A DNA stretch of 64,000 nucleotides, taken from Saksenaea vasiformis B4078 (taxonomy: Eukaryota; Mucoromycota; Mucoromycetes; Mucorales; Saksenaeaceae). Made by a program: the position numbers and the translations under genes. The DNA lies in assembly GCA_000697055.1 (NCBI GenBank), contig JNDT01002268.1, positions 1 to 64,000 of the forward strand, in the 5' to 3' direction. The notes beneath the pieces are model-generated. The model searched no databases. It saw only the letters and a list, made by a program, of their open reading frames with translations, and was not told the DNA's origin. Of this stretch, positions 1 to 60,224 are shown in pieces. How positions within the stretch are numbered: position 1 is the first letter of the stretch; each line of letters opens with the position of its first letter.

Positions 1-223
1 ACCAATGGAGAACGCCAACTTGTAGGTTCTCAATATATTATAGAATGTCTTCTCATAGTCCCAACAGGTGTGGAATCGAGACGTGAATGCTGGAAAAAAC
101 ATGCGACAAATACTGGAGGCGTACATTCGATCTGGATGTAACGTTGACTCTCGTCCAGCAGCGCTTCAGAGGCCATCACGGCCACCACAAACAGTGCAAG
201 AACAAGTTCTCACAGACAGTTAA
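1..223 (+). CDS. Fanzor (TnpB-like) protein, copy A, 3' end only
   Basis: Only the last two exons are in the window. Positions 1-21 encode TNGERQL, a GT-AG intron follows (22-67), and 68-223 encode VWNRDVNAGKNMRQILEAY and a short tail ending in TAA. The NRDVNA motif is the C-terminal RuvC-III signature of TnpB/Fanzor proteins, with the catalytic Asp in RDVN. The exon junction falls exactly where it does in copies B and D in this window, which read LWNRDVNAS and FWNRDVNAG. Fanzors are known RNA-guided DNA endonucleases carried by eukaryotic mobile elements. Whether this copy is intact cannot be judged because its 5' part lies outside the window. Confidence 0.82.
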
Positions 224-270
224 AGAGCTGTCATCTAGCCTCCTGTTAGGCACGGGTTTCGTACGGTAAG
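224..270 (+). ncRNA. candidate omega-RNA 3' element, copy A
   Basis: Fourteen bases after the stop codon there is a perfect 4-bp stem GCCT (238-241) and AGGC (248-251) with a 6-base loop CCTGTT. It is preceded by CTGTCA and followed by GGTAAG at 265-270. The same arrangement occurs at the same distance after the stop codon of copy D. In known Fanzor and TnpB systems the guide RNA overlaps or follows the 3' end of the nuclease gene. The assignment is inferred from that position and the conservation between two diverged copies. Confidence 0.5.
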
Positions 271-11981: not shown

Positions 11982-13315
11982 CAGTGGGGGGGGACAAAAG
12001 TGTAGACCCTCCCCTTGAAATTTTTTATTTTTTTGAAGCCACTTTGTACTTCTATTCAGTGAAAGTCAACAACCTCTATAGCTCTGAACATGAAACTTTG
12101 AAAGCTTTTTCTTTAGCTGGTACTTTACCTACATGTAAAATTTCATGAGTATTAAGCATGTAAAAAATGGAACAAAACTATATTTAATACGAGGTGCTTC
12201 CACCTTTAGCTTTGATTACTTGAGCAAGCCTCTTGGGCATAGTGTCTATTAACTTGTTGATCTTCTCCAAATCAACTGCATCCCAAGCCTCTATAAGAGC
12301 AGTCTTCATTTTTTTGGGCGATTTGACCTGCTCTTTTCTCTTCTGGATGTAGATTTTCATTTGTTGCCAAATGTTTTCGATTGGATTTAGATATGGAGAT
12401 TGAGCAGGCCACTCCAGCTTTTCCAGTTCGTATGTCTGTCTCCATTCCTTCGCGGCTTTGCTTCTATGAGTAGAAGCTCCATCTTCCATTAGGATGGGTG
12501 CAGTCATGGTAGAGAGTATGTCGAGCAATCCACCTTCGTACACCTTATCCACATAAGCATCAGCTGTCCTCTCTTTTTCGCCCATAACGACCAAAGGAGC
12601 CTTCATGTTCCATGAGATAGCACCCCAGATCATCACCGATGATCTTCCACTTCGGAATGTTGGAACCACACAGTCAAGTTCATATCCTTCTCTGGAGGTT
12701 CTCCACACATGCACTTGGCGAGAATTCTTGCCAATCTCAAACGTTGACTCATCGCTCCAAATAATCCTTTTCCAGAACTCTTTAGGGGCGTTAATGTATT
12801 TCTTGGCAAACACCAGCCTATCATCCTTGTGTTTCTGCTTCAAGAATGGCTTTTTGCGAGCAACTCTTGCATGTATGTCTTGTTGGTTTAGACAGCGGCG
12901 GACTGTACGGTTGCTGACAGTTACTGTGCAAGTGTTCGTCAGTTCATGTCAGTGTGCTGCGACGTTGTTTCTTGCTTGTCTGCACCAGGTGTCTAGCTTC
13001 CCTGTCTGATATCTTCTTTGGCCTTCCAGTGACCTGCGGCATCTCTACACTTCCGCGATCGCGAAAACGCTTCAAGACGCCCTTCACAGGATTTACAGAT
13101 AGGTCACAATTCTTGGCGATTTGCGTGGGTGTAACGCCATTTTTGTGCATTGTGACGATGAGTTCTTTTTGCTCAGTAGTAAATCTCTTTGTAGACATAA
13201 TATTATAGCGCAGAAATGAGAAGAAAAGGGTAAAACGACTGATAGAAAAATATGCACATTTATCAAAAAAGCATCAAATTTCAGGGGGAGGGTCTACACT
13301 TTTGTCCCCCCACTG
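11982..13315 (-). mobile_element. Tc1/mariner DNA transposon, about 1.33 kb, full length
   Basis: Terminal inverted repeats of about 42 bp start CAGTGGGGGG and include ACAAAAGTGTAGACCCTCCC on both ends. The G-run differs (8 on the left, 6 on the right). The left flank is TA; the right flank reads TG, so the TA target duplication has mutated on one side. It carries a single transposase gene on the minus strand and sits inside an unrecognised host gene. Confidence 0.92.
12184..13198 (-). pseudogene. Tc1/mariner transposase with a single frameshift
   Basis: The protein starts MSTKRFTTEQKELIVTMHKN at 13198, with an N-terminal helix-turn-helix region (THVQIA-like: GVTPTQIAKNCDLSVNPVKG). The catalytic DDE domain follows: IWSDESTFEIG (first Asp), MEDGASTHRSK (second Asp) and SPYLNPIENIW (Glu), the DD34E arrangement of Tc1. 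One extra base at 12946 creates a TGA (12944-12946) and shifts the frame. Everything else is open to the TAA at 12184, so the copy was probably active until recently. Confidence 0.9.
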
Positions 13316-15624: not shown

Positions 15625-16465
15625 TCAACTTGCATCCCATTTTTTTATCCAGGCCGAAGCCGCTTCTTGATCTTTACAAGATCTGATGTCTTTCGATATC
15701 TTGGATAGGAGGAGGTCGTGGGACGCCTCCGGGAAGTCGGCGTTTTTCATCACATATGCATGCTTGATGGACCAGCTTTTGGGATCCACCTCATTGAAGT
15801 AATTAAGATACATGGCAGGGTAGACAAGAAGTGAAAAGTGGTTTTATGACAATGAAGTGTACGTTGCATGAGGCGGATGCACTAAAATCACCACCAAATA
15901 AGGCGCGAATGACATCACTAAAAATTCCGACAACTTGGATTTCTTACCTGACAGCACCACTCTCCGGGAATTTCGCAGAGAGTATCAGCGCGGCCCTCCG
16001 GATAATCAACAAAGGAATCAATACACCCGGGCCTGACAAAGAGGCTAGGATGACGGGTCTCTAACCGCCGTACCACTCAAGGAGTGATTTTGAGATAGTC
16101 CCAACCAGTTTTCTGCGCCTGATTGCCTAAGGGTTGGTTGGTAGCCTTTGCTGTAAACTCGAAAGGGTTCCTGCTCAGGTCTTTGAAGGCTGTAGAATAA
16201 AATGAACATATGTGTATATGGAACAGTGGATGTTTACCAAAAAGGCACTGGTTAGGACCGGCCGCTTACGGAGGCTCCCACAAAGTATGTGTTCGCATCT
16301 TAGCAGGATGACCTCCGCAGCGGTGCAAAAGGAGTCTAAAGAAATAGCTGTAGTTAATTGTTTCTTCAGATAAGAAAAATACATTCCTTTCAAGCTGTCG
16401 TTGGATCGATGCATGAAGAGAAAGCTTGCGTCACTTGAAAACGAACGTACTTGATCTTGTGCCAC
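15625..16465 (-). pseudogene. unrecognised broken gene
   Basis: Coding-like exons run 16465-16239 (SFLFMHRSNDSLKGMYFSYL), then after a GT-AG intron FKDLSRNPFEFTAKATNQPL. The frame continues to a TGA at 16077-16079 and stays open beyond it (ETRHPSLFVRPGCIDSFVDY) to a GTAAGA donor near 15963. A last exon (15813-15625) starts MYLNYFNEVDPKSWSIKHAY and ends IKKWDAS. The internal stop within a continuing frame suggests a pseudogene. No family is recognised. Confidence 0.4.
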
Positions 16466-18171: not shown

Positions 18172-18870
18172 CTACGTCCTACTAGGACGACTCAGCGAGA
18201 CAGGTCGGGAATCTAACTGCTCTTCATGTTCCATGTAACTGTGCACGACCCGCCGAATGTTCCTACTAGCGTTTACATCTCTGTTCCACAGCTAAGTAGC
18301 AGGTTATGTATATACATATATATAGTTTTCTCTCTCAATGCATACCAGACGTGGTTCATGGTGAAGGCATTCCTTCACAGGATACACATCACTGCGCCAA
18401 TCGTTTAGCCCTAAAACGACACCGTTTGGTCAGTAGCTTTGTACGATATAAGAATGTTTACCAATTGGCGCTTTCTCGGGACACACAGACGTTCGATGTA
18501 TTGCGCGTCCGTCCTCGTTTAAGCAATAGCGCTTTTTGCCACTATCGTTCTTCAAACGGAGCATCTTGGTGCTGTGTTAGATATAGAACTATCAGCTATA
18601 GTAACTTTAAAGGAAAAACATTACCTGTGTTCACAACGCTGTGTTGGAACACGCAGTTGTCTTGTCTCGTGCTCGCACTCTGAGCACACCTTACTAGTCT
18701 TGTATTCATCGACTAGTAGCACGATAGCTTTCTGTGCCAGTACCCGTCGGAATTTCTGTTGATTAAAGAAAGACTATTATAGGGCAAACGGACTTTTGAT
18801 CATAATTGCCTTTATCGGCATAGGGGCATGCTTCTTCACGGGTTTCAAGTCAGCATCACCAAAGGCAACT
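18172..18870 (-). pseudogene. Fanzor (TnpB-like) protein, copy B, 3' fragment
   Basis: Five exons are readable on the minus strand: VAFGDADLKPVKKHAPMPIK (18870-18810), KFRRVLAQKAIVLLVDEYKT with SKVCSECEHE (18755-18625), KKRYCLNEDGRAIHRTSVCP, SDVYPVKECLHHEPRL, and LWNRDVNASRNIRRVVHSYM ending SRPSRT at the TAG 18172-18174. They carry the RuvC-II Glu (DEYKTSK), the zinc-ribbon cysteines and the RuvC-III Asp, with the same exon junctions as copy D. The donor after exon 1 is GC instead of GT. No RuvC-I exon or earlier sequence was found upstream, so the copy is 5'-truncated although its remaining frame is clean. Confidence 0.8.
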
Positions 18871-19820
18871 CTGAGAAAGAAAATCAATGTAATGCAGATT
18901 ATTAATGCCATTTTACATGGTTCTCATTTCGGTTTGCGTAATGACCAAGCGTCGGAAAAGTTGACAACCTCTCAGCAATAAGCGCTTGTTCTGAAGGTAC
19001 AGTCACTATATGATGTTTTGATCACTTAAGGTACGTATGCAGAGTCAACGGTAGTAATAAACTCCGAGCTGAAGCAGCACGTATGGAGACCTGCAACTCT
19101 CAGTATCACTGAAAGGTGTATAATTGGACATACGGATATAACAATCCTACAATTCAGTTCAACGCGGCCAGAACTGAAACATATTCTTCGTCTAAAGTAC
19201 CAATCGGAGAGCGTCCATAGGGGTGTCAGTTCCTGCGAAGAAAAAAAAAAATCGAGAACAACAATGTTCCACCTATTTCTGCTTCCATCCCTGATTAGAA
19301 GTGGGACAAAAGCAATGAACTATATTTGTAGCACTGTGAGAATCATCTACTCTCCGTACCTGCCCCAATCTAATAAAAACGCTTCTTCAGACTGGACAAA
19401 AGACGCAATCGCATTAACTGAGATTAGCAATCTGCTTCAAAGTCCTCAGAGGGAATAACGATAGAAGAACATCGTCTGACGTTTCAGACTGTGACCAAGT
19501 TTCACCGGCTTCCCTTTTTCTTTGCCGTTTACCTTCTTTTATTATCCTACATAACAGATTACAGCGTAGAAGTTCAAAAAAAAAAAGAAAAACGCCAATC
19601 TGAACTTGTATCTTCAAGTGTCCCTGACGAAGGACCCACTACAATCGTATAATTCTGTATGATTAACTAGAAGTAAAACAGCGTTTACTTGAGTCATGTA
19701 GTTGGTGCTCCCAAAGAGACAAAAAAAATTCAACTCATCTGAGATGTGCTACATACCCGGGTCTATCAGGCGGAGTATATTCTAACCTAAGATGGTGAAA
19801 ACAGCAGAAATTCATACAGT
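18871..19820. other. gene-poor stretch, no gene recognised
   Basis: The missing 5' part of Fanzor copy B would be expected here on the minus strand. I looked for the GVDPG motif and upstream exons and did not find them. Confidence 0.5.
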
Positions 19821-20548
19821 ATGCTTCTTTCTATCATGCCATCCCCAACAGAAAAAATTGTTTCAAAGATATGGAGAGAGGGAAGATCTGAAGGATCGGA
19901 ATTTTTTGACTTAAAAACACGAAGAGAGGATAAAAGGGAACTGCTTGAAATGGTCAACGAACAATTCAAAGAAGTAAACGATGTACTATTTCTCCGGGAT
20001 GGAGGAAGTACATGCATGGAAGTGAATTTTACCGGTAAGCAAGCACCGCTGCATGACCTAATTTTCAAGGATGGAACAGCTATTGTTAGTGCACCCCCCT
20101 GGAGCCCGGTTCAAAAGTGGTCCAACTGACACTGTATAACCTCCCCCTCATAAAGAGGGAAATCCTACTAAAGGAGATACGCAAGACCATGGAATTCTTT
20201 GGAGTGATCCTCCAAATCGATATCTCCACAGACAGAAAAACAGATATATTCCTGGGGACAGCCTTGATCTTGATCGATATTGCGGAAAAAAGCGACAAGA
20301 AGTTCCAAGAACTGAAACATATTATACACAAAGGTCGTGGGCCCCGCGACGCAACCTACGCCACCTGGGATGGGATGCCCGGTTACTGTCATTCATGCCA
20401 CGAAGGAAAGGGGCACACACCTGCATGTGCCAAAAGTCCTCACCGAAATACTGAATGCCGGAGATGTCATGGGTATGGGCATGTCTCGAAAACCTGCCCC
20501 GCCCCAAACGAAGGCAAAAAAAGAAAACGGTATTCATCGGGAAAATGA
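19821..20548 (+). pseudogene. CCHC zinc-knuckle protein (gag-like), one frameshift
   Basis: The first frame (19821 to about 20105) reads IVSKIWREGRSEGSEFFDLK and AIVSAPPWSP. The text then continues one frame over as KVVQLTLYNLPLIKREILLK to 20548. The shift lies in the C-run of CCCGGTTC near 20108 and looks like one lost base. The C-terminal half carries two zinc knuckles, CHSCHEGKGHTPAC and CRRCHGYGHVSKTC, then a basic tail KKRKRYSSGK. This layout resembles the ORF1/gag-like nucleic-acid-binding proteins of non-LTR retroelements. No reverse transcriptase follows, so it is a solo or orphaned copy. Confidence 0.6.
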
Positions 20549-21739
20549 AATATCAACTGTCTACATATCAGTTATTTGCGAAATTCTATGGGAATGCAGT
20601 TTGTTAACAGTAGCTCAATCTGTGCAACAGTAGCATTAGGACATCTCTTCCCTATCCTTTCCATCCATGTAACAGTTTTCCTTTTTGATTACATACTGCA
20701 CAATCGCCAATGACCAACTTCTGGCAACTTCATTATCCAGTAAGTGAGCTCTCCATCATTATCGGATTGAAGCACCAAATGGCCACCTCATATTGGTTAA
20801 ATGTATTAGCACACAGCAGAAGCCCTATTGTCGGGAGCAAAATATCTTCGTCCCCTTCCTTTCGAGAGCAGGAACATGTTAACGTTCTAGATTTATCTTG
20901 ATACGGTTTTGTACAATAGTTGCTCTCAGTTTAAGATGGAGTTCGAGTTCAGTTTGGGCACACCTCCAGAGGGGCATTGACCCCAAGATCGGTATATTGC
21001 GCACTTACAGTGATAAGTGAAGCGATCATCGTTGAGTATGCTTTGCTCATCCATTTCTTTTTGTATGACTCCTCTATCACTGTCCCAGTCCCAGTTTTTG
21101 TTTATTTACCCATCCCATCTTGTTCCCATTATTTATTGTTGTTTCTCGAAAGTTACTTGTAAAGCCTGAACCCTGGGAACAATGGAAAACATCAAAATCC
21201 GAAGCCAAAGCCTATATGTTTCAGGAACTTATAGAGGTTTTACTCTGTGGTACAAGGAAAAAAAGAAAGAAAAGAACGGGAAATAATTTTATTGTAAACG
21301 GACATGAGCTCAAACGATTACCTAGGAATATCTTCTACAATGGCTTCATTTCATGAAATAGCATCCAGTTTGCGAATTCAAGGAACTCAACAATCGCATC
21401 GATCGCAATAGCAAATTTAGTCTAATCCTGCGATCACTACTCCTTCTGGACTTCACGCGCCCCTTTCGCTTACCTCAGAACTGGTTCATGAAAATAAGTT
21501 AATCCACACATAAGAAATACACGATGGGCCTATCATCAAAGATATCAGTAGATAGTCCGTGTTGGGATCGAGCTCCAGTGAATGTCCGGCCTTCAGAATG
21601 GAACGGCTAAATCCAATAAAGGAAACGGTATAATATCATCATTAGGCAGTGCATACAAAGAAGTATACATTCGATGTCAAACGACACCCGCCACCAACGG
21701 AATTAATTCTTTTTTCTCATGTCGAATTACCAAAGTAGC
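20549..21739. other. gene-poor stretch with one possible remnant
   Basis: A block at about 21170-21354 on the plus strand (ELIEVLLCGTRKKRKKRTGN, FIVNGHELKRLPRNIFYNGF) reads like coding sequence but has no ATG or recognised family. The missing 3' end of Fanzor copy C should lie at 21.5-21.7 kb on the minus strand, but no zinc ribbon or RuvC-III motif is found there. Confidence 0.35.
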
Positions 21740-24700
21740 GAAGAGCTACAGAAATCGGTCCGCCAACTTGGACAACGTGCGATCACGTTCCCTCTTTAAA
21801 AACAACCGATGCTCCCTGTGTTTCTAATGGACGTTGAAGTTGAACAACCTGACAGAAATAAAAAGAACCAGAAACAATGATCAGTAGGATATCCTTAGAT
21901 CAGCAAAGCCTAAATCTTACCGTTCGTGGTGCAAGCTCAATGTTCGTAGGTATGTCCGAAATCCTGCGACAGTCGCCGTCTTTGGAGGCGTCGTCCTCAA
22001 AGCCTCGTAAACACCGCCTATATCAGCGGTTCCTCTTTTTCGGTTCTCGACAGCTTTGTTCCAGTCGAACCGCGATTCTCGCCTAAATGGTGAACGTTCA
22101 GTGCGGCATCCACCACTTGTACCACAACCCCAACTTACTGATAGCTCCTGTTCGAAATGGATATGGTATGCAGTTTACGCTGCTGCTTGTCTCGCAAAGA
22201 CATGCCAGTATCCACTGCGGTCAACATGTCCCGGATACCTGTGTACAGATGCAGGTGGTGAATAGGGCTTCTTCCTACATAACATGTCCTTACCGGGATC
22301 CACTCCAATCAATCTCGTTTGATTGACATCACCTAAGTCAGTAGGCTCCTTTTTCAGGTGATATAAACCGTGATCTCGATTGGTGAAATCGCGGTTGCGA
22401 CTCAACTTCTGGAAATCCCGCTTACTACTTGGGTAAGGGTCTGATGCAAGTTGGTGAGATAAAGTACCTGGCGAAGCAGTGCAGTAATCTTCACTTACCT
22501 TTTCCCCGATGTTGGAACAGGGCGGATGCTCTAACGCCATCTGTTTCCATGTAGAATGCAAAGGACAGAGCATTCTCTTCTGCTCACCAATCGTGATAAT
22601 ACAATTATTAGTACGATAACATGAGATTCGCCACACCCCTTCCTTATCTACCTGCTTCAGGATTGTTAAAACGACGTCGTCGCGGCTTGACCTGATCGAG
22701 GTCGAAAACTTGTTCCCACAAGTTCTCTCGCCACATGTAATTCCTGCAGCTCTCATCGAAGTTATTCTTGCTCATAACCCGTATCTCAGCGTCCTGCCAA
22801 AATCATTGATTAGTAAGTCGTGTCAACTTCATTTTTATCGTATAACCTCTTCCTGGCGCTCTACGGTTCTCAACATTTGGGGTGGGACAGCTTCGCCAGC
22901 GCAATGGGCTCGTCGTAGGATCGCCCACAGGACGCGGGGCGGTACAGGCATGAAACCTACCTGGTAAGAGGCAATCAGTAGTACAGACCGCCTCTTGGAT
23001 TCCAACCTCTCTGCATCACGATCCAGGAAACATGAAAACTTGATACAAGCTTTCAGCAAGTCAGCGCTGACAGACGCGTCTTCGTCATCATCAATTTCTT
23101 CTACATCTCTAAGAGCTGGAAGCTCAAGAAACCTTCTGAAATGTTCCCTAGTACATAAACAGTTGTCAATGTCTTCCCCTATCGATTCCGCTTACCGGTA
23201 CAAATTCCTCGTGCTGCTGTTCCGTACAGGATCATGGGCGTTCCAGTTTCCTTCCGCAATCGCTTTCCCTTCGAACAGCAATCCCACGACCTTGTTTGCT
23301 AAGATGATAATACGGTATGATTATCCAATGTTCTTTAACTTTTCATTACGATACCTAAGGTCTTTGCATTGGTACACTCCATGTCTAGGAAATGTTTCTG
23401 CCACACATATTTTGCGTACACGCTGATGTTATTGACAACATGCAGCCTCATATCTATGCGGCGTGTGAGTTTGATATCGCGTTGCCCTAATACAATTTTA
23501 CTCGCAATCGTTCTCTTTTGATACGCATCTGTCAACTGCTTCGCCAACTCATCGTTTTGAGGCGAACGATACAGATCTAATCCAAGTTTTAGCAAAAAGT
23601 CATTCCGCTCAATTAAATTATCCTTACATTCATTGTCCTCATTTTTCTTGCATGGGATAAAAAATGAGAAAAACGTGATCCCCATGTGGAACTGCCATAT
23701 GGTAGTGATCCTCTCCATCTTGAGACGCAAGTCTTCTTCCGACACCATCAGGTAGGCACGGCGCCAGAAGCTAATATCCTGCAGCGGTGGGAAAGGGAAC
23801 TCGTCCTCATTATCCACCTCCGCCCACCGGCGCACATGCAGATTTACGAGATTCATTGCATCTCGTCTGAGAATACAATGATCCTCCGCGGCCCTTCTCA
23901 TCACAGCCTAATATGAGTGTTAATCGATGTACATTGATAAGAACATACTTTGAGCCCTTTGTGCTCCTCTTTGAGAAAATTTCTCAGCTTCAGCTGTACT
24001 GTAGAGTGCCCTATCCTGCCCTCTTCCTTTCTCAGAAGGGATTGCTTGAAATTCCTTCTTTTTGAGGGTCCTGAGTATACAGTATGTTAAACGACAGAGA
24101 AACGGTAGGTTTCTTTTACCAGCTGAAACAGGAAGTTCCACAGCATCTTCTGCAACTGCAAGGAGATCGACTGCATCATCACTGTCCTCAAGAACCGCCA
24201 CAGCCGAAGTCGGTGAAGCTGTGAATAAATGAACTTTTTTAAAGGAAGGCTTCTGCGAGAACACAAGGATCCAAAAAGAAAAATACGTACTGGCTTCACA
24301 CAGCTCCAGTGGAGCCACGGCCTTCTCCTTTCCTTTTCTGGAGCTCGCACCAGTGACAGCTTACGAGAGAAAGTTAGTCAAATTGCTCCACAATAATACA
24401 GCAGTAAGATCCTACGTGCGGTTCGGTGACTCTCCAAGAGGATCGCCTCGCGCGATCCATCATCGTCCACTGTAACAGCGGGCGAAGCTAACATACAAAA
24501 TAGAAAATACTGTAAGTACGTATGCAGAAACCGGATTAAGGCGATAAGTACATGATTCGCACAACTCCATTGGCTCTGCAGCCTTCTCTTTCCCTTTTCT
24601 TGAAGGAGCACCAGATGTAGCTTATGTAAAAAAGTTAATTGTTTCATAAATAACGTTACAACGGCAGGACTTACGTGCAGCTCGTCGCCTCTTTAGGACG

Positions 24701-52434: not shown

Positions 52435-54082
52435 TTATTTCATGTTCACCAGTTTGATCTGAAAATAAATATATCTGTTTAGACAAACACTATTTTGCGG
52501 AAAGATGCACTTTGTCCTTACCTCAAAAACAAGTGTAGCATTTCCAGGGATATCTGGGGGTGCGCCACGCTTGCCGTAGGCCAGAGGTGCAGGGATCGTC
52601 AACTTGCGCTCACCCCCCAGCTTCATGCCAGCAACACCAATATCCCAACCCTTGATTACTTCACCGCGACCCAACATGAAGCTGAAAGGCTTTCCGGACA
52701 CATTCTTGTCGAAAACCTTACCGTTGGTCAACTTGCCAATGTAACGCATGCTGATCTAGTAAACATTTATAAATATGACTTGGACTGAATTGTTATTTAT
52801 AACTTACTCTTTGGCCACTCTTGGCAGCAGCACCAACGCCAACCTTAATGTCCTCAATGATCAGACCATTAGGCAGCTTGACAACCTTTTGTATCACAAG
52901 TTAATGTTAACCATGGTGACACTCACCGTGATCTGTCAATTACCTTTTTCTCATCTTGCTTCTTTTTCTGCTCAGCTTGCTTCTTCTGTTCCTCCTGCTT
53001 TTTTTTCTGTTCAGCCTGTTTCTTTTGCTCCTCCTGCTTCTTCTTTAATTCAGCTTGCTTCTTTTGTTCCTCCTGCTTCTTTTTCAACTCGGCTTGCTTT
53101 TTCTGTTCCTCTTGCTTCTTTTTCAGCTCAGCCTGCTTCTTTTGCTCTTCCTGCTTCTTCTTGAGTTCGGCTTGCTGTTTGGCCTCAGCTTGTTTCTGCT
53201 CAGCCTTTCTCTTCTTAGCAGGCTGTTCATCCTGAGCCTTGGCAGGGCGCTTCTTGTTCTCTTTGACTACGACTTCCTCTTCCTCTTCTTCTTCCTCCTC
53301 TTCCTCATCTTCCTCCTCCTCATCCTCTTCCTCGCTTTCTTCTTCATCCTCCTCTTCTTCAGAATCGTCGTCCACTTCAGCTTCATCATCTAAATAGGCA
53401 GCTGTCGAAATAGGAGTCCATTTTTTTAAAAAAAAAGTCATCGAATAGAAAACATACCAGCACGCTTAGCGTCAATGCCATTGGGAAGACTAAAAGAAAA
53501 AGGAATGATGCGGTTAATAAAAGTGGTGATAGCAACGTGTTTTAACACTTTACTCCATGTCCACATCATCGAAATCAGAGTCGTCTTCGTCAAACGTGTA
53601 GTTACCAGTCAAATGGATGGTGCTGAAAAAACGATTGTTAGAGCAAATAGATCAATACTTGACCTACGTACTTGGAACCCTTCACGGAAAAAGTAACTTC
53701 TTCACCTTCCACAAAGGTGACATCCAAGGATTGTTGCTCGACCTGGAAATGCAACGCGTCAAAATTACTGTACTAGAAGTCTCTCTACAGCTTACCTTTT
53801 CGGGGATCAACGAGCACAAAACGAAGCTCTTTCCGTCAATCTTCACGCAGACACTGGTACGCTTGTTGTCGGAAACTTCATCAGAAAGAGATGCCTTGAA
53901 AAAATATTAATGATCCTGTCCTCCCCGAACATGTAAATGTTACTCACCATCGCGATCCGGAAAGGTGCGGTGACAATTTGGCTGTATGTCTTGCCAGGAA
54001 CGACATGAAGACCTAGCTACAATGTTAGACACCATCTCTCTAGAGAGTTTGATACTGTACCCCAAAAACCCTGAATACTCAT
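52435..54082 (-). CDS. nucleoplasmin-like FKBP-type peptidyl-prolyl isomerase
   Basis: ATG at 54082 starts [20 protein letters not shown], the nucleoplasmin-like fold of nuclear and nucleolar FKBPs (Fpr3/Fpr4, FKBP39/46). Then come [17 protein letters not shown] and [20 protein letters not shown], a long acidic stretch of E/D, a Lys/Gln/Glu repeat region and the C-terminal FKBP domain ([77 protein letters not shown]), ending IKLVNMK at TAA 52435-52437. These proteins are histone chaperones and proline isomerases acting in ribosomal DNA chromatin. The last exon start was chosen to give the canonical VFE-IKLV ending. Confidence 0.92.
52955..53195 (-). repeat. 39-bp coding tandem repeat in the FKBP gene
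   Basis: About six copies encode the 13-residue unit [13 protein letters not shown] with third-position variation. The predicted product is a long, charged single helix between the acidic region and the FKBP domain. Confidence 0.85.
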
Positions 54083-54216
54083 ATTAAGGAGACGCGAAAT
54101 AAAATAATAGAAGAGGTGTGCACGGTTTCAGAAAAAAAAATTAGAGAAAGTGGGACTGTTTTGGCAAAGGGCCACTTTTATTCGGTCATTGAAAATCGAA
54201 ATGTGATCATTTTTCT

Positions 54217-54880
54217 TTATTTATCTTTGGGTTGACAAATTCGTATTGGGAAACACTTCTTCTTTGCTCCAAGCATACTCCATAGCATCAAATACTTCTT
54301 TATCTCCAGGAACTTTTCAAGCGAGCATCCTTCACAGCTTTGGAACTCTTGCAGGAAGTTTTGCATTCTCTGTTCCAAGACTGTCTTCTGTGACGCGAAG
54401 TCCAATGTGCCATCTTCCGTGTTTTGAACTGGAACAGTTGATGTCACATGTGAGTAAGTAGACACTATTAACAGCATTACGCGTTAGAAGCTGTATGCAA
54501 GTACTTTTCTACAATACCTTGAAGGACGTTTAGGTTGGAATTGGCACGCTGGAGGAGATGCATATGTTTGCATGCTACTTGGCGCATGCTGTCATGTTCG
54601 AATTTTCGACAGAAATATTATATGCTACGCCCTCCTGTGTGAATGATCTGACAGTATGACTCGAGACCATATCGTCAACTACAGCACTAGGTATCTGGGC
54701 AGCTGCAATCTCTCGTCGTCTTCTCTCTCTTTCGGCAGGGCCCATTCTTCCGACATTCGCGCTTACTCGTGCCGTGGTCATTTGGAAGTCGAACTCCACA
54801 TCGTGTATTAAGATCAAGTCAGCAATGATCTTGTGATCCGTTTGTTCTCTGCTGTATTTCCAACGTCGATTCACTTGCGA
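54217..54880 (-). pseudogene. SWIM-type zinc-finger protein remnant
   Basis: The minus strand reads SANVGRMGPAERERRRREIA, VDDMVSSHTVRSFTQEGVAY and NISVENSNMTAC, then shifts frame to MRQVACKHMHLLQRANSNLN. The C-K-H ending is the second half of a SWIM zinc finger (CxC...CxH), while the first half is partly deleted. A GT-AG intron leads to the C-terminal exon (LEQRMQNFLQEFQSCEGCSL), ending at 54217. Such proteins in fungi are often related to MULE transposases or their domesticated derivatives. Coding-like text may extend upstream to about 55.4 kb but is broken. Confidence 0.45.
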
Positions 54881-55715
54881 GTATTATCCCTACACGATCT
54901 AGCTACGTGGAAGAGCCATAGTTGGATACATACGTTCAAATGTGCAAATCTGTCTTGCAGCTCGACACGTATATCTTGCTGTTGGTTTTTGTTGAATCTT
55001 ACTGAAAGTGATTTTCTTCCACCCCTTGCATTCTGCTTATTTACGGGTACATTTGCACTTCATTTTGCAAAGTTTTTATCACATCATCGAGATCCAACTG
55101 TGGCAACGTCTACCTGTGTCCCAATTATTGCTGCATTACACAATCGCTTGTTATCTTCAATATGGAAGATAGCTCTGCATCTACAAGCTTCTTCCAGATT
55201 ATTTTCTCTTTAAATAAAAGGGATAGTTTCTTTTGAGACAGGACAACACTTCCACAGAGACCAGTTTCTGACAGGAATTGTTTGTTTGTGATTAGCTGCA
55301 GGAATATCTTTCCGATCTGACGGACAAAGAACAGGATTTACTCGCACGGAGCGATCAAGTATTGGCCAATAGGCTTTAAACAGTACGAAGGTTAATATGG
55401 TTTGGTGGCCAGACTGCATGTGGACTAATCCTAAAAAGCTGGGAACCTACTGTTGATCTCGTAGGCGTAAGGATGATAAATTCTGAAACACTGATTTATC
55501 ATGCGCTTAAAAAGGCCAAAACATTACGTCGACTGATGAAGTTCAACACAATGAATGTCCAATGTGACACAAGCTTGCTACAGTTCATCATAATGAAAAC
55601 AGGCAGATAAATAAGCTCAATTTTTGACAACGTCCTCTGATCTTTATCGTTTTATTCTTCTGTTACCCTTTGGAGCTTTCCCTCGTCGCCTGCTGTTTTA
55701 CTCTGCCTGCAACTG
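54881..55715. other. no supported gene
   Basis: Fragmentary coding-like text on the minus strand (for example KLVDAELSSILKITSDCVMQ) may belong to the 5' part of the SWIM remnant. Confidence 0.35.
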
Positions 55716-58700
55716 ATGGAGCCCCTCGCTGAGAAAGGTCCGCCGAGGCAACGGCAACGACAGCGATATCGCCAATCACTTCTACCGCGAACCGATGGCA
55801 AGATAGGAAGAGTTACCAGAAAACTAAAGCTGTCCAGTTTTCTAAACAATGACTATAAATACTTACGAGTGAGTATTCATTCCAACAAGCAATATCTTGT
55901 TGACACGCTATTGACAGGAGCAATTTCGACTTGTCGCCGAAGAATACCATGTAATGAAACGCGATGCAGTTAACCTGGCGAACCTCCATTTGCGTCGCTG
56001 GGTCGAAGGACTTGGTACAGAAAATGCTTTCCAGTTCCCACCCATTACGGACAAAGATTTTTTGGAGCAAGGCCTACCGGTTCGCCAACAACCGAGTCAG
56101 TACGGTGACCCGAGGCGTAGATGTAAGTACGGAATAGTTCTATCAAGATATCTAACGGAAAGCTACGTTGTTTAGCCGGAATGGCAGGTCGATCTACTCG
56201 AAACTTTCATGTCGCACTTCCATCCTCTCCGTAGGAATGTTGATGCTAATGAACGTAAGATATATATACTGCTGCCAGCTGCTCATATGCATCGATTATT
56301 CCTAAAAATATACGTAATAGCCTTTTACGAGATCGTAGAAGTTCAAGGAGTGTACGGTCCATTTGCAGATACTTTTCCCGCCCAAATAATTCAAAGTACT
56401 TTAATGTTCATATTATCAATGCTCCATAATCATTAATAATTTGTACCAATAGACGTAAAACGACATTTGGTAGTAAATGTCCCTATATTCCTGAAAATGG
56501 TCTTCCGCGCATACTTTGTCTATTTGAAGGAACAGATTAGAGGGAGCCTTCCTGGTGGCGGCCCCGCTCGTCATGGTAAATAAGCTCTTTCAAAGGTCCG
56601 GTGATCTCATCTCTATCATTTATAGCTGATGTAGCTGTAGCAAACATCTTCAACCATGAACCATTGGAAGATGACATGTGGGAAGAGATGCCTCGTCGAG
56701 CAGAAGTGGCAGAGTTTTACCGGTAAGCACGACAGACTAACCGTCTGTAATTGATTAACATTTACGCCACTTTCATAGTGTCCAGCATGAACTTTACGAA
56801 CGTCATATGGCTGGTGTGGAAATCCATGATTTGGATCCAGAAGACGACGAAGCTGTTCCGCTCATGCCGGGTATTGTTCAGTATATATATCACTTGCACC
56901 ATTACAGTACGGAATATAACGGGAAAGCCTGGTCTTTACTTCCGATAACCGACCATCAGATTGGCCATTTTCCTATATTCACGAGAGTGCTGTAGTATCT
57001 ACTGCGAGACGCCTACTTAGCAAATCAGCACGTACCCGAGCGCTTTCTGGTAACAAAGTTTGTGCAATATATACAACTAATAATTTTCATTCTAGGGCCC
57101 ACAACGAGGTCCACTGCGAAGGACATACATGCCTCAACAACAATTCGAGTATCGTTGCCGCGACAGCGAGTGGAAAGAGGCACTTTGGGAAGAAATTTTT
57201 AATATTGATAAATGCCAAGCGAAACGTCGACGATTTGATCCTGAACGTAAGCAATATTCTGTTTTAAGTCCATCGTCCAATTGATTTTGTTTTTTGATGA
57301 TCAACCAGAAGTGCAGTTGGAGTTTGCCTATTACTTGCAAACCGATGGAGTGTCTGTCTCTGTCTCTGTACAATTTGACCGACGACGCTCAGGTACGCCA
57401 ACGGAAGGTCTCCAATAACTCACTGTGTTTCATTAGAACGTTACCCATCTTCGAAGCGAGATTTCCGACTTCTTCCTCGAGAGATCGATCTGAGTGATTG
57501 GCAAAGAGGTATATATCGCCTCAACAAAGAGCCTCGTGGGATGGATGAAGACAGACTGGCTCATTCCAGGATCATCGGTGTAGATCCAGGTATAAGCCAA
57601 GTAGCTATTCTCTTGCTATAACTAAAATTTCGACAGGGATCCGATCAATGTTCACAGCCGTAGATACAAATGAAGCTATGGACACCCCCGAGCCTCGCAG
57701 CACTCATTCTGCCACGATCAGTAACAAGGAATACCAGTAAGCAACCAATATCTGCCTCTTTTTGAGCTAATCGTCTGATGTATAGATTGCGGTCAATGTC
57801 TACATGGTCAAAGCAAAATGAATTGAAATCTCGTACAACAGCGGAAATACAACCTCATTATGACCTACTGTCGAACAATCCTCCTACTGTCATGAGCGTA
57901 CAAGGCTTTCAGCGGTATATCACTGCTTTGAGCATCATCCACAACACGTAAGAAAAAGCACTTTAAAACCACTTCTCACAAACCTTTATTAGACTACATA
58001 ACTTCAACAAGAGCTACCGACATCGGGAAAACCGACTGCTTCTGTACTCCGCAAGACGGAGCACACTCGACGTACTGGCGGACCGCATTGCTAATTGGAC
58101 TCCCCGAGACGTAAGTTTGTAACGCCTTCATATTATGCTAACTTAACTGAAAAAAAAAAAGCCGGACGTTCGACCACACTACAAGTCAACCCCGTCATCG
58201 CGGAAGCATCGCCGTCGTAAGGCCGGCCGACAACAACCTCGCCCGGAACAGCCAGCAATCATTGCGTATGGTGACGTGGATTTGCGACCTACAATGCGGG
58301 GCCAGGGTCCAGTTCCAGTGAAGGTCAGCATTTACAAGTTCTTATAGACAAGTCTCACGCATTCCAAATACTAGACATTCCGGCAAGTTCTCGCAAGGCA
58401 CGCTCTCGTTGTTCTGGTCTATGAATACAACACTAGCAAGGTGTGTTCAAACTGCGACCATGACATGGAACAGTTTCGAGCACCAACAGCACGATGTCCA
58501 CACGAGTATGTATCAAACCGCTGGAAATATTCGAAAATTGACTTCATCAATAGAAACAAAGTAGTTCGGTTTGTCGGGGCTGGGAGAGCCAAACGATATT
58601 GTCTTGATGAGAACGAACGAACGATGCATCCGACATCACAATGCCCAGAGCTTCGACCATTAGGCAAGTAAATATCAGGCTGCATACTTGTTACTCTAAC

Positions 58701-59004
58701 TGGATCTTTTAATATAGCCATTACAGATAATCGCAGCAGCGTGTATCCGATCAAGGTGTGCCACCACCATCAGTTGGGACAAGCTGCCGATGATCAAGCA
58801 CTCAGACCATTAGTAGGTGTTCTTATATCTGTTGTTCTGTTCTCATTAAATGTATAGTTCTGGAACCGTGATGTGAACGCGGGAAGAAACATAAGAATTC
58901 TAGTTGCCTACATGGAAAATGGACATCAGCTAGAGTCAAGACCCCTCTCATTACAACGACCGCAGCAGCAACAACAACCGCCCCATATCGGGGCTAGGCA
59001 GTAA
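55716..59004 (+). pseudogene. Fanzor (TnpB-like) RNA-guided nuclease, copy D, near complete
   Basis: About 18 exons. ATG 55716 starts MEPLAEKGPPRQRQRQRYRQ, then EQFRLVAEEYHVMKRDAVNL, an alpha-helical middle (DVAVANIFNHEPLEDDMWEE), FAYYLQTDGVSVSV, and the RuvC core. RuvC-I is RIIGVDPG-IRSMFTAVD (Asp codon 57583-57585), RuvC-II is LVYEYNTSK (Glu 58423-58425) and RuvC-III is FWNRDVNAGRN (Asp 58870-58872). Zinc-ribbon cysteines lie in VCSNCDHD, RYCLDEN and TSQCPE. The last exon is 58858-59004. One TAG (56993-56995) falls where copy C has Trp (VLW). The join near 56122-56176 needs a weak donor to keep frame, and one intron near 58670 is GC-AG. All other junctions are in phase. Probably recently inactivated. 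Confidence 0.85.
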
Positions 59005-59061
59005 TGAACTGCCAATAAGCCTCTCGTTAGGCACCTGGTGTGCTGTCTTCGGGCAGGTAAG
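59005..59061 (+). ncRNA. candidate omega-RNA 3' element, copy D
   Basis: Fourteen bases after the stop codon lies GCCT (59019-59022), the loop CTCGTT and AGGC (59029-59032). It is enclosed by a longer-range pairing of CTGCC (59009-59013) with GGCAG (59052-59056). Copy A has the same GCCT-N6-AGGC hairpin at the identical distance, the same upstream CTGYCA, and GGTAAG downstream. Guide RNAs of Fanzor and TnpB elements lie here. An alternative is that the GGTAAG is a splice donor used by a downstream transcript. Confidence 0.55.
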
Positions 59062-59108
59062 AATTGCTGTCACGTTAAAAAGAAACTTACGTCTTACTTC
59101 TTCCGTGA

Positions 59109-60224
59109 CTTAAGTGCACTGGTGTAAGATCTTATTCCTTTTTGGCGTCAACCACGATTCAGTACGAAGCATACAACTGTCCGCTATGTCAAGAAGACTT
59201 GACGCACATCAAATCTTCTGTCCTGCGTCAAAGACACGTAGAACAATGTCTTGAGTCACCAGATTCCATGTCGCATGCGACATCACAGCCATCGGACGAC
59301 ACATTTGATTATTGCATCTTTTGCGGCAAGAATATCTCTCTTTACAATGGCATCCGAAAAGAATCGCATTTTTCACATTGTATGGATGAAATGGCTCTGG
59401 AAGATCAGCAGATCAAGGAACAGGAGCGACAGCAGAGTTTGATGTCTTTCGCAGGTCAGCCTCTCCCATTTTTGGTTCAGCTTGAGGTCTGTCCGTGTTG
59501 TTATGATGATTTTTCGCGTCTTTCATTACGTGGCAAGGTCACACACGTTAAAAAGTGTTCAAGGCGGCAGGGTATGACGATGGAGCAGCTGCTAAATAAA
59601 TTTCGATGGATTCAATGGGGCCACCAGCCTATGCAGCGACCATCCGACCCTGTTGAGGTACCAACATTGCGTCCCACCAAACAAAGTGAAATTCGAGCAA
59701 CGACTATTGACACAGACGATGATTTTAGTCCGAAAATCCTCCTTCATCGACGTGCACCTACCTTGAAACGAAACTCAACAAGGAACGATAAAAATGAGGA
59801 TGAGCTCCAGCTGGTACTGGCACTGTCAAAATCGATGCAACCATCCAAGGAGAACAAACACAAAGATCGTCCGGCACCCAACGCGTCAACTGTCGTGACA
59901 ATTGAAGAATCACGTCGTCTCGTATCTGAAAGACTCGAAACGCTATTGGATCGCTCAGATAATGAATTACAAATACCATGTGACCACCACACATTTTCCT
60001 TGCCATCCTCTAGAGTGCAAGTGAAGGAACATACCGCTCAGGAATCTAAAGCTCGACCATCCCTCTGGAACTTGGCATCTGCAGATCAGACTATGGATAT
60101 CTTGGTATTTCGCTCCGATTTTATGAAGGTAACTTAAAACATTTGAAACATGTATCGTGATCTAACGCAGTTACCAATGAAAGAACATTGGACCAATATA
60201 GTAACATTTTTTAGGAAAAGTTGA
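59109..60224 (+). CDS. SLX4-like protein with UBZ4 zinc fingers (5' end unresolved)
   Basis: The frame is open from 59109 to the donor at 60128, then across a GT-AG intron to TGA 60222-60224 (LPMKEHWTNIVTFFRKS). It has no ATG before the first finger; an upstream exon probably supplies it. Three CCHC/UBZ4-like fingers are visible: CPLCQEDLTHI...RHVEQC, CIFCGKNISLYNG...HFSHC and CPCCYDDFSRL...THVKKC. The last is followed by SRRQGMTMEQLLNKFRWIQW, the helix typical of SLX4/BTBD12. SLX4 scaffolds structure-specific endonucleases in DNA repair. This protein is short and lacks an obvious SLX1-binding C-terminus. Confidence 0.65.

Follow-up and report, generated by a model that had tools for sequence, protein, structure and literature searches.

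A stretch of 64,000 nucleotides from the genome of the fungus Saksenaea vasiformis B4078 (contig JNDT01002268.1, positions 1 to 64,000; hereafter the window) carries on its forward strand, at 55716-59004, a gene that is a Fanzor by the published sequence signatures. This gene, copy A in what follows, very probably represents a Fanzor1-type RNA-guided DNA endonuclease gene lying within a DNA transposon, one that probably once had a Mutator-like transposase. It belongs to a family of many copies, which have a near-exact right end and differing flanks, are under purifying selection, and possess at the Fanzor stop a conserved 3' core, a candidate for the scaffold of a guide RNA.

Copy A is made up of 18 exons, from an ATG at 55716 to a TAA at 59002-59004, and its spliced product comes to about 804 codons. 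Exons 1-6 are at 55716-55868, 55918-56122, 56176-56254, 56321-56395, 56453-56575 and 56626-56722, exons 7-12 at 56779-57049, 57096-57246, 57309-57392, 57437-57589, 57637-57736 and 57786-57947, and exons 13-18 at 57993-58110, 58162-58323, 58375-58505, 58554-58663, 58718-58812 and 58858-59004 (all +). The 17 introns are 44-66 bp long; 16 are GT-AG, and the other (intron 16, 58664-58717, +) is GC-AG, with GC..AG at this place in each of seven copies that were read (part of the copies found). Over the 17 introns in these seven copies, 112 of 119 pairs of splice sites are of the copy A type. A preliminary description of the window had seen here an intron-rich Fanzor gene of about 18 exons, with a RuvC triad and a zinc ribbon; this is confirmed in the sequence, and a spliced-alignment script supplied with the C662 protein and the copy A DNA gave the same 17 introns, together with one frameshift and one stop.

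The published signatures of Fanzors are a DPG sequence at RuvC-I and a relocated glutamate (Ealt) that precedes the zinc finger by six residues (PMC10711439). Both are present in copy A. In an alignment of four proteins (copy A, C662, C272 and an older related gene of the window, B+C, the last three being 84, 55 and 40% identical to copy A, respectively), the residues D462, E661 and D761 are invariant. The first, the RuvC-I catalytic aspartate (codon 57583-57585, +, exon 10), lies in GVDPG, and DPG is found in all four members; the second, the alternative glutamate of RuvC-II (58423-58425, +), lies in YEYNTSK, six residues before the CxxC (E661-YNTSKV-C668), and the preceding AYGDVDL...VLVY stretch of copy A, which covers the canonical site, is without glutamate; the third, the RuvC-III catalytic aspartate (58870-58872, +), lies in WNRDVNA. 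The two zinc-ribbon pairs are CSNC (C668, C671; 58444-58455, +) and CHHH (C739, H742; 58759-58770, +; aligned in 4/4), the last ligand position being a histidine, and the 67 residues between them hold the invariant C685-x-H687, C704 and C718. The motif of Bao and Jurka, D-X(125,275)-[TS][TS]-X-X-C4-X(5,50)-RD, fits in its spacing (201 residues separate D from TS, and 17 the last ligand from RD), the ribbon of copy A being CxxC...CxxH with its long interval rather than a plain C4.

Comparison with TnpB and Fanzor profiles had been proposed as a check in the preliminary description. PF07282 is matched by all four aligned members (at E up to 0.1, the best being 1.6e-6) and the NCBIfam model guided_TnpB by two of the four (best E 1.2e-4). 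Moreover, hhalign joined the four-protein alignment (98.5%, E 2.1e-15) to an open reading frame (ORF) from another Fanzor-type family of this genome. The catalytic D, E and D fall opposite their counterparts in the ORF, with its GADP opposite GVDPG, in agreement with the proposed identity of copy A. This ORF (C419, 796-3102, -) is intron-less and lesion-free, with 768 codons, and its TNB stretch scores 34.8 bits, above the Pfam cut-off. Several results weigh on the other side. Copy A alone scores 23.4 bits on PF07282 (TNB), below the cut-off of 26.3, and has no match to any NCBIfam model at E up to 1; among solved structures it reaches only PpFz1 (E 0.045, one-sequence query), while the four-sequence profile reaches none of them up to E 10 and the C419 ORF gave no Fanzor match among them; and 0 of 4417 candidates in a large protein set scored with the copy A query. 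In viral contigs, 73 pattern matches included no relative. The initial copy A searches (Pfam, single-sequence structure, genome protein matches and the large protein set) were made with a query containing about 25 misframed residues from the end of exon 2; the four-protein alignment, its Pfam, NCBIfam and structure profile searches, and hhalign used the corrected reading. From its size and context, we infer that copy A is a Fanzor1 rather than a Fanzor2.

Relatives are numerous in the genome assembly (38.7 Mb, 666 contigs): there are at least 137 matches to the TNB domain at E of 1e-3 or better, counted from the 150 candidates scored out of 388, and at least 167 exon-by-exon matches to the copy A protein (56 of 711 candidates scored). 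Around copy A, the common body of the mobile element is about 4.95 kb long (~54174-59122, +), with a right tip that is near-exact and a left tip that is fuzzy between copies. When 19 further right ends of lineage I (the lineage of copy A) were compared with a reference running to 59140, all 19 matches ended at 59119-59131, nine of them at 59122, and the flanks past this point differ between copies; for four right ends of lineage II (the lineage of C272), the matches in the same comparison end at 59038. The last bases of the element are GTGCACTGG (59114-59122, +), and its last 183 bases occur at 40 places in the genome. On the left, 16 of 46 other matches to a query starting at 52800 begin at 54172-54174, and none begins earlier; the evidence for the left end is this query only, the reference in the other end search having begun at 54174.

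A hint of how the element moved may lie in its left part. The first 640 bp are about 92% identical to the elements of C272 and C606, which carry a diverged Fanzor lineage and whose minus-strand ORFs give weak matches to MULE and SWIM models. Within this part of copy A, at 54480-54814 (-), lies a remnant with a broken frame that could be the C-terminus of a MULE (Mutator-like) transposase carrying a SWIM-type zinc motif; tblastn relates 54814-54480 (-) to an ORF of C606 in two frames (95% over 77 amino acids and 83% over 36; E 1.7e-44). The assignment of this remnant leans on a motif order seen by eye. Against it stand the scores of two C606 ORFs, which at 13.9 (MULE) and 15.8 bits (SWIM) are below the Pfam cut-offs and are accompanied by an unrelated match to XdhC_C at 16.4 bits. 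Copy A has no match, at E up to 0.1, to the other transposase-like ORF of C606, and no inverted repeat of 14 bases or more joins the two ends of copy A, where a terminal inverted repeat (TIR) would be looked for in a Mutator element.

An alternative is that an IS607-like or some other recombinase moved the element and that the Mutator-like sequence was merely picked up at its left end, with no part in the movement. We regard this as rather unlikely, in spite of several points that fit it: the want of a long TIR, the fuzzy left tip, the other left parts found in some subfamilies, and the lack of a clear target-site duplication at the junctions of six copies out of seven (C606, C272, C525, C456, C233 and copy A; five copies were examined by script, and C233 and C538 by eye). 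Weighing the other way, the seventh copy, C538, is flanked by a perfect duplication of 9 bases, which agrees in length with the one reported for Fanzor elements of the MuDr type (PMC3627910), and the same left end is found in two diverged Fanzor lineages. Empty sites were sought by joining the flanks of seven copies, and 0 of 44 listed matches cross the junction by more than a few bases; the flanks of C525, both of which belong to a repeat of some 350 bp, were also considered as an empty site, a candidate rejected as not clean because the repeat is inverted on the right.

Some further features of the ends were noticed. By eye there is a short subterminal likeness, TAWGTCAC/GTGACTTA, between the two ends of copy A. 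In the subfamily of C662, N-A-G comes after the tip GCACCG in five of five copies, and may either belong to the end or reflect a target preference. C445 has a right end, then 9 bases, then CGATTTACTT, which is similar to the left tip; several left flanks have CCAA just ahead of CGATTTAC; and the left flanks of C413 and C645 hold GGAACCCC, resembling the right tip of lineage III, as if elements adjoined each other's ends. From the right end of the copy A element a stop-to-stop frame of 342 codons (59109-60137, +), with several Cys/His pairs, runs into the flank; it looked SLX4-like by eye, but there was no Pfam match above cut-off.

The end of the gene is overlapped by the candidate omega-RNA scaffold core (58975-59036, +), with a central hairpin at 58997-59001/59009-59013, whose loop holds the stop codon, and another at 59019-59022/59029-59032. 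Between lineages I and II (copy A and C272), 38 of 44 bases are identical across 58991-59034 (86%), compared with 97/146 (66%) in the preceding part of exon 18 and 44/92 (48%) in the rest of the 3' part. A 15-base core pattern has 45 matches in the genome and none in a reversed control; 39 of the 45 coincide with the 40 places of the element's last 183 bases (the core being part of that query), which leaves six at C409, C547, C552:237, C565, C596 and C624:239755. A looser pattern gave 32 matches, with four in the reversed control. In RNAfold, three windows of copy A have z-scores of -2.9, -3.4 and -2.3, and C662 has -2.2.

Pairing in the central hairpin was assessed in 18 chosen sequences, with the arms set by hand, MAFFT having aligned the 5' arm of the stem wrongly over four lineages. 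In these, 83 of 90 cells pair (a count that includes C184, with 1/5 pairs, and C596, C95 and C623, with one broken pair each); for the 11 distinct arm pairs the figure is 48 of 55, against a shuffled mean of 43.0, and this was reached by 6 of 5000 shuffles. At one position of the hairpin A-U, C-G and G-C pairs all occur. The set includes lineage IV (C95, C526, C538:59006, C588 and window 16031-16072), for which tblastn found no adjoining Fanzor end in the fetched stretches; the pattern matches C565 and C139, in which this hairpin could not be seen by eye, were not included, and the looser-pattern matches C78 and C263 are likewise outside it. For lineages I and II alone, the covariation score was reached by 2 of 500 shuffles, and one pair is changed on both sides, a count reached by 314 of 500; on a loose alignment RNAalifold gave 14 pairs, two with changes on both sides. 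As read by eye, the stop codon TAA falls within the loop of the central hairpin in lineages I, II and III.

Just 3' of the core, an internal arm (59034-59043, +) is predicted to pair with the right tip, that is, with the last nine bases of the element. Among 27 arms and 27 tips (19, 4 and 4 for lineages I, II and III, the tips of lineage III having been placed by eye at the point from which four copies differ in their flanks), duplexes within a lineage are stronger on average than those between lineages: the own-lineage means are -12.4 (I), -12.3 (II) and -13.9 kcal/mol (III), and the cross-lineage means lie between -6.5 and -8.8. C344, without the arm, and C445, without the subterminal bases, are included in A1 and were excluded from A2 and from these arm-tip tests. 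The first 14-15 bases of the flank (59123-59137, +) would be the guide, a prediction that borrows the guide length of SpuFz1; they differ between copies. In SpuFz1 the 3' omega-RNA ends at the right end of the element, with a guide of 14-15 nt, and in GtFz1 there is overlap between the omega-RNA and the last part of the coding sequence (PMC10432273), while in Fanzor1 the transposon ends form part of the scaffold of the guide RNA, or reRNA (PMC10711439). The pairing of arm and tip fits both the use of transposon ends in that scaffold and the overlap described for GtFz1.

These observations can be drawn together in a tentative proposal, which we put forward as possible, on the doubtful side of even: that the scaffold starts inside the coding sequence, that in at least three lineages the stop codon forms the loop of the central hairpin, that the tip co-evolves with the internal arm, and that one and the same transcript end serves both message and guide. 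If this were so, translation and guide formation would be mutually exclusive for any one molecule.

Not all the evidence favours a guide RNA. For lineage II the RNAfold z-score is -0.5, no better than shuffles. When the hairpin arms of different lineages are exchanged, pairing is kept at 3-5 of the 5 positions, so that the pairing signal in the hairpin is modest. In five copies tested, the real arm-tip duplex was reached by 39-152 of 2000 tip shuffles, and since 2-8% of shuffles thus match or beat it, the pairing in a single copy is not decisive; damaged copies, for example C214 (-8.4), pair weakly. It might accordingly be supposed that the conserved core is a DNA structure of the transposon end, or an element of the untranslated region or of transcription termination, with the complementarity of arm and tip representing subterminal repeats for a transposase. 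Besides the modest margin over shuffles and the poor fold in lineage II, the lack of any Rfam family at the gathering score in the window could be cited for this view, which we nevertheless think unlikely. It sits poorly with the occurrence of three standard pair types at one hairpin position, with a core that is better conserved than the neighbouring coding DNA, and with a placement at the Fanzor stop codon and an end at the right tip that reproduce the omega-RNA layout in print (PMC10432273, PMC10711439).

On the reading as a Fanzor1-type nuclease with its own guide RNA, the following scheme may be envisaged. The multi-intron mRNA would be spliced and translated into the nuclease, while the 3' end of the same strand, from within the last coding bases, would give rise to a scaffold RNA (omega-RNA) ending at the right tip and taking the next 14-15 bases of the flank as its guide. 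The resulting ribonucleoprotein might then cut DNA matching the flank, such as an insertion site free of the element, and repair from the occupied copy would allow the element to persist or spread by homing. A Mutator-like transposase, which the element probably once had, may have played a role as well. Copy A could make no full protein, but it may still supply guide RNA in trans, given that its 3' region has been kept.

As a protein gene copy A reads as dead, with two disabling lesions. One is the in-frame TAG in exon 7 (56993-56995, +), already recognized as a nonsense codon in the preliminary description. The other is a one-base frameshift within exon 2 (56040-56065, +; placed at about 56050 by the script), which is private to copy A and lacking from the six other copies. 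It had been taken for an awkward junction between exons 2 and 3; that intron is in fact an ordinary one, with GT..AG in 7/7 aligned copies and phase 0 in the corrected frame, and the frame is lost some 70 bases upstream. An uncorrected gene model, in which the frame was lost past exon 2, was discarded when a separate reading of exons 3-18 and the comparison of copies exposed the frameshift. 'Near-intact' is therefore apt as a description of what remains of the gene, but not of its capacity to encode a protein. Nor are the other copies sound: by the script's reading each of the seven has at least one stop or frameshift. Could the two lesions be errors of sequencing or assembly, copy A being intact in the living fungus? 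One-base frameshifts are a common assembly error, and several copies (e.g. C537 and C214) reach contig ends, but lesions of differing kinds in every copy read are what would be expected of ageing transposon copies, and we consider such errors a very unlikely explanation.

In spite of this decay, the family is under purifying selection. All 21 pairs of the seven copies have ratios of nonsynonymous to synonymous change (dN/dS) of 0.08-0.39, those of the six pairs involving C662 being 0.08-0.11, which supports the reading frames. Between copy A and C662 the divergence at fourfold sites (0.39) and in intron interiors (0.31) is of similar degree. Most improbable of all is that the protein is a non-cutting relative of Fanzors, whether an RNA-guided DNA-binding regulator or a gene adopted by the host: TnpB-derived regulators that do not cut exist in bacteria, and purifying selection fits any function, but the three acidic residues of RuvC are invariant in 4/4 proteins at 40-84% identity to copy A, and the gene is not a single-copy one but belongs to a mobile family of many copies, decayed ones among them.

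The introns are old. Of the 17 intron positions of copy A, C272, with 55% protein identity, shares 16, C606 has 14/17, and the B+C gene of the window, with 40% identity, has 11/17 (seven in B and four in C). Most introns therefore predate the split of lineages that are now 40-55% identical, in keeping with the earlier suggestion that several introns are shared with B and C and that the family has resided in this fungal line long enough to be intronised. The shared positions thus point to spread of the family via DNA and not via spliced RNA.

Two other pieces of Fanzor DNA are present in the window. B and C (together 18178-24071, -), at first described as separate copies, match consecutive parts of the protein, B (~24071-21755, -) corresponding to residues ~8-584 and C (~18870-18178, -) to residues 625-794. 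Because these parts are consecutive, in order and on the same strand, they can be read as the halves of one gene, some 2.9 kb apart, and are probably a single older gene interrupted by inserted DNA. A weak RNA-core match (16090-16027; 9.8 bits, E 0.15) lies 2.1 kb beyond this gene and may or may not belong to it. The second piece, at 68-255 (+), is a lineage III element cut by the window edge, with a Fanzor C-terminus at 68-190 (tblastn, 56% over 41 amino acids) and an RNA core at 214-255 (RNA model R1; 25.6 bits, E 4.4e-7); its stop, at 221-223, is within the hairpin loop as read by eye. Apart from the Fanzors, two ORFs were noted by eye: one within the gap between B and C (20090-20548, +), with zinc-knuckle cysteines and resembling retroelement Gag, and one at 12184-12948 (-) like a DDE transposase of the Tc1/mariner type.

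With its several diverged lineages, kept introns and conserved 3' core, this one genome offers a natural series for the co-evolution of Fanzor, guide RNA and transposon end. The same series bears on the way in which a guide RNA is obtained from a message rich in introns, and on whether decayed copies supply guides in trans.

Among known systems, the closest in kind are the MuDr-type Fanzor1 elements of Mucoromycota (ROr-4, PBl-3 and MCi-4; Bao and Jurka 2013, PMC3627910), which share with the present family the Fanzor1 motif (here in its spacing), residence in a fungal DNA transposon and an association with Mutator (here probable), as well as the 9-base duplication (here in one copy); fuzzy 5' ends are also described for MCi-2 (PMC3627910). 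As far as comparison by description allows, these elements encode no MuDR transposase and have TIRs (PMC3627910), whereas here no long TIR was found, and the C606 and C272 elements, with the same left end as copy A, carry what may be a Mutator-like gene (by weak profile matches), of which copy A has the tail only. PpFz1 of Parasitella parasitica (PDB 9cf0; PMC11423790) aligns at the glutamate adjacent to the zinc ribbon but is very distant, the ribbon of copy A having an insertion that holds the extra conserved Cys/His. SpuFz1 of Spizellomyces (PMC10432273) resembles the family in its many loci per genome and in the 3' omega-RNA running to the right end (predicted here), and differs in that its locus, of 2.1 kb, is described with just one ORF and with inverted repeats of 30 nt, where copy A has 17 introns and no long inverted repeat. 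Introns are also present in the Chlamydomonas Fanzor1 elements CRe-1, -2 and -3 (5 and 10 exons; PMC3627910), but these are Helitrons, another transposon class, and copy A has 18 exons. Fanzor1 in Mutator-type elements of Mucoromycota, Fanzor introns and the overlap of omega-RNA with coding sequence are thus already in print (PMC3627910, PMC10432273). In the excerpts of the Fanzor literature searched, we found no description of an omega-RNA hairpin with a stop codon in its loop, which is not proof of absence; as far as those searches show, what is new is the member family itself, the sharing of most of the 17 introns across lineages, the stop within the loop and the co-variation of tip and arm. 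Set beside these relatives, the family of copy A is a real and useful addition to the known Fanzors, and nothing new in principle.

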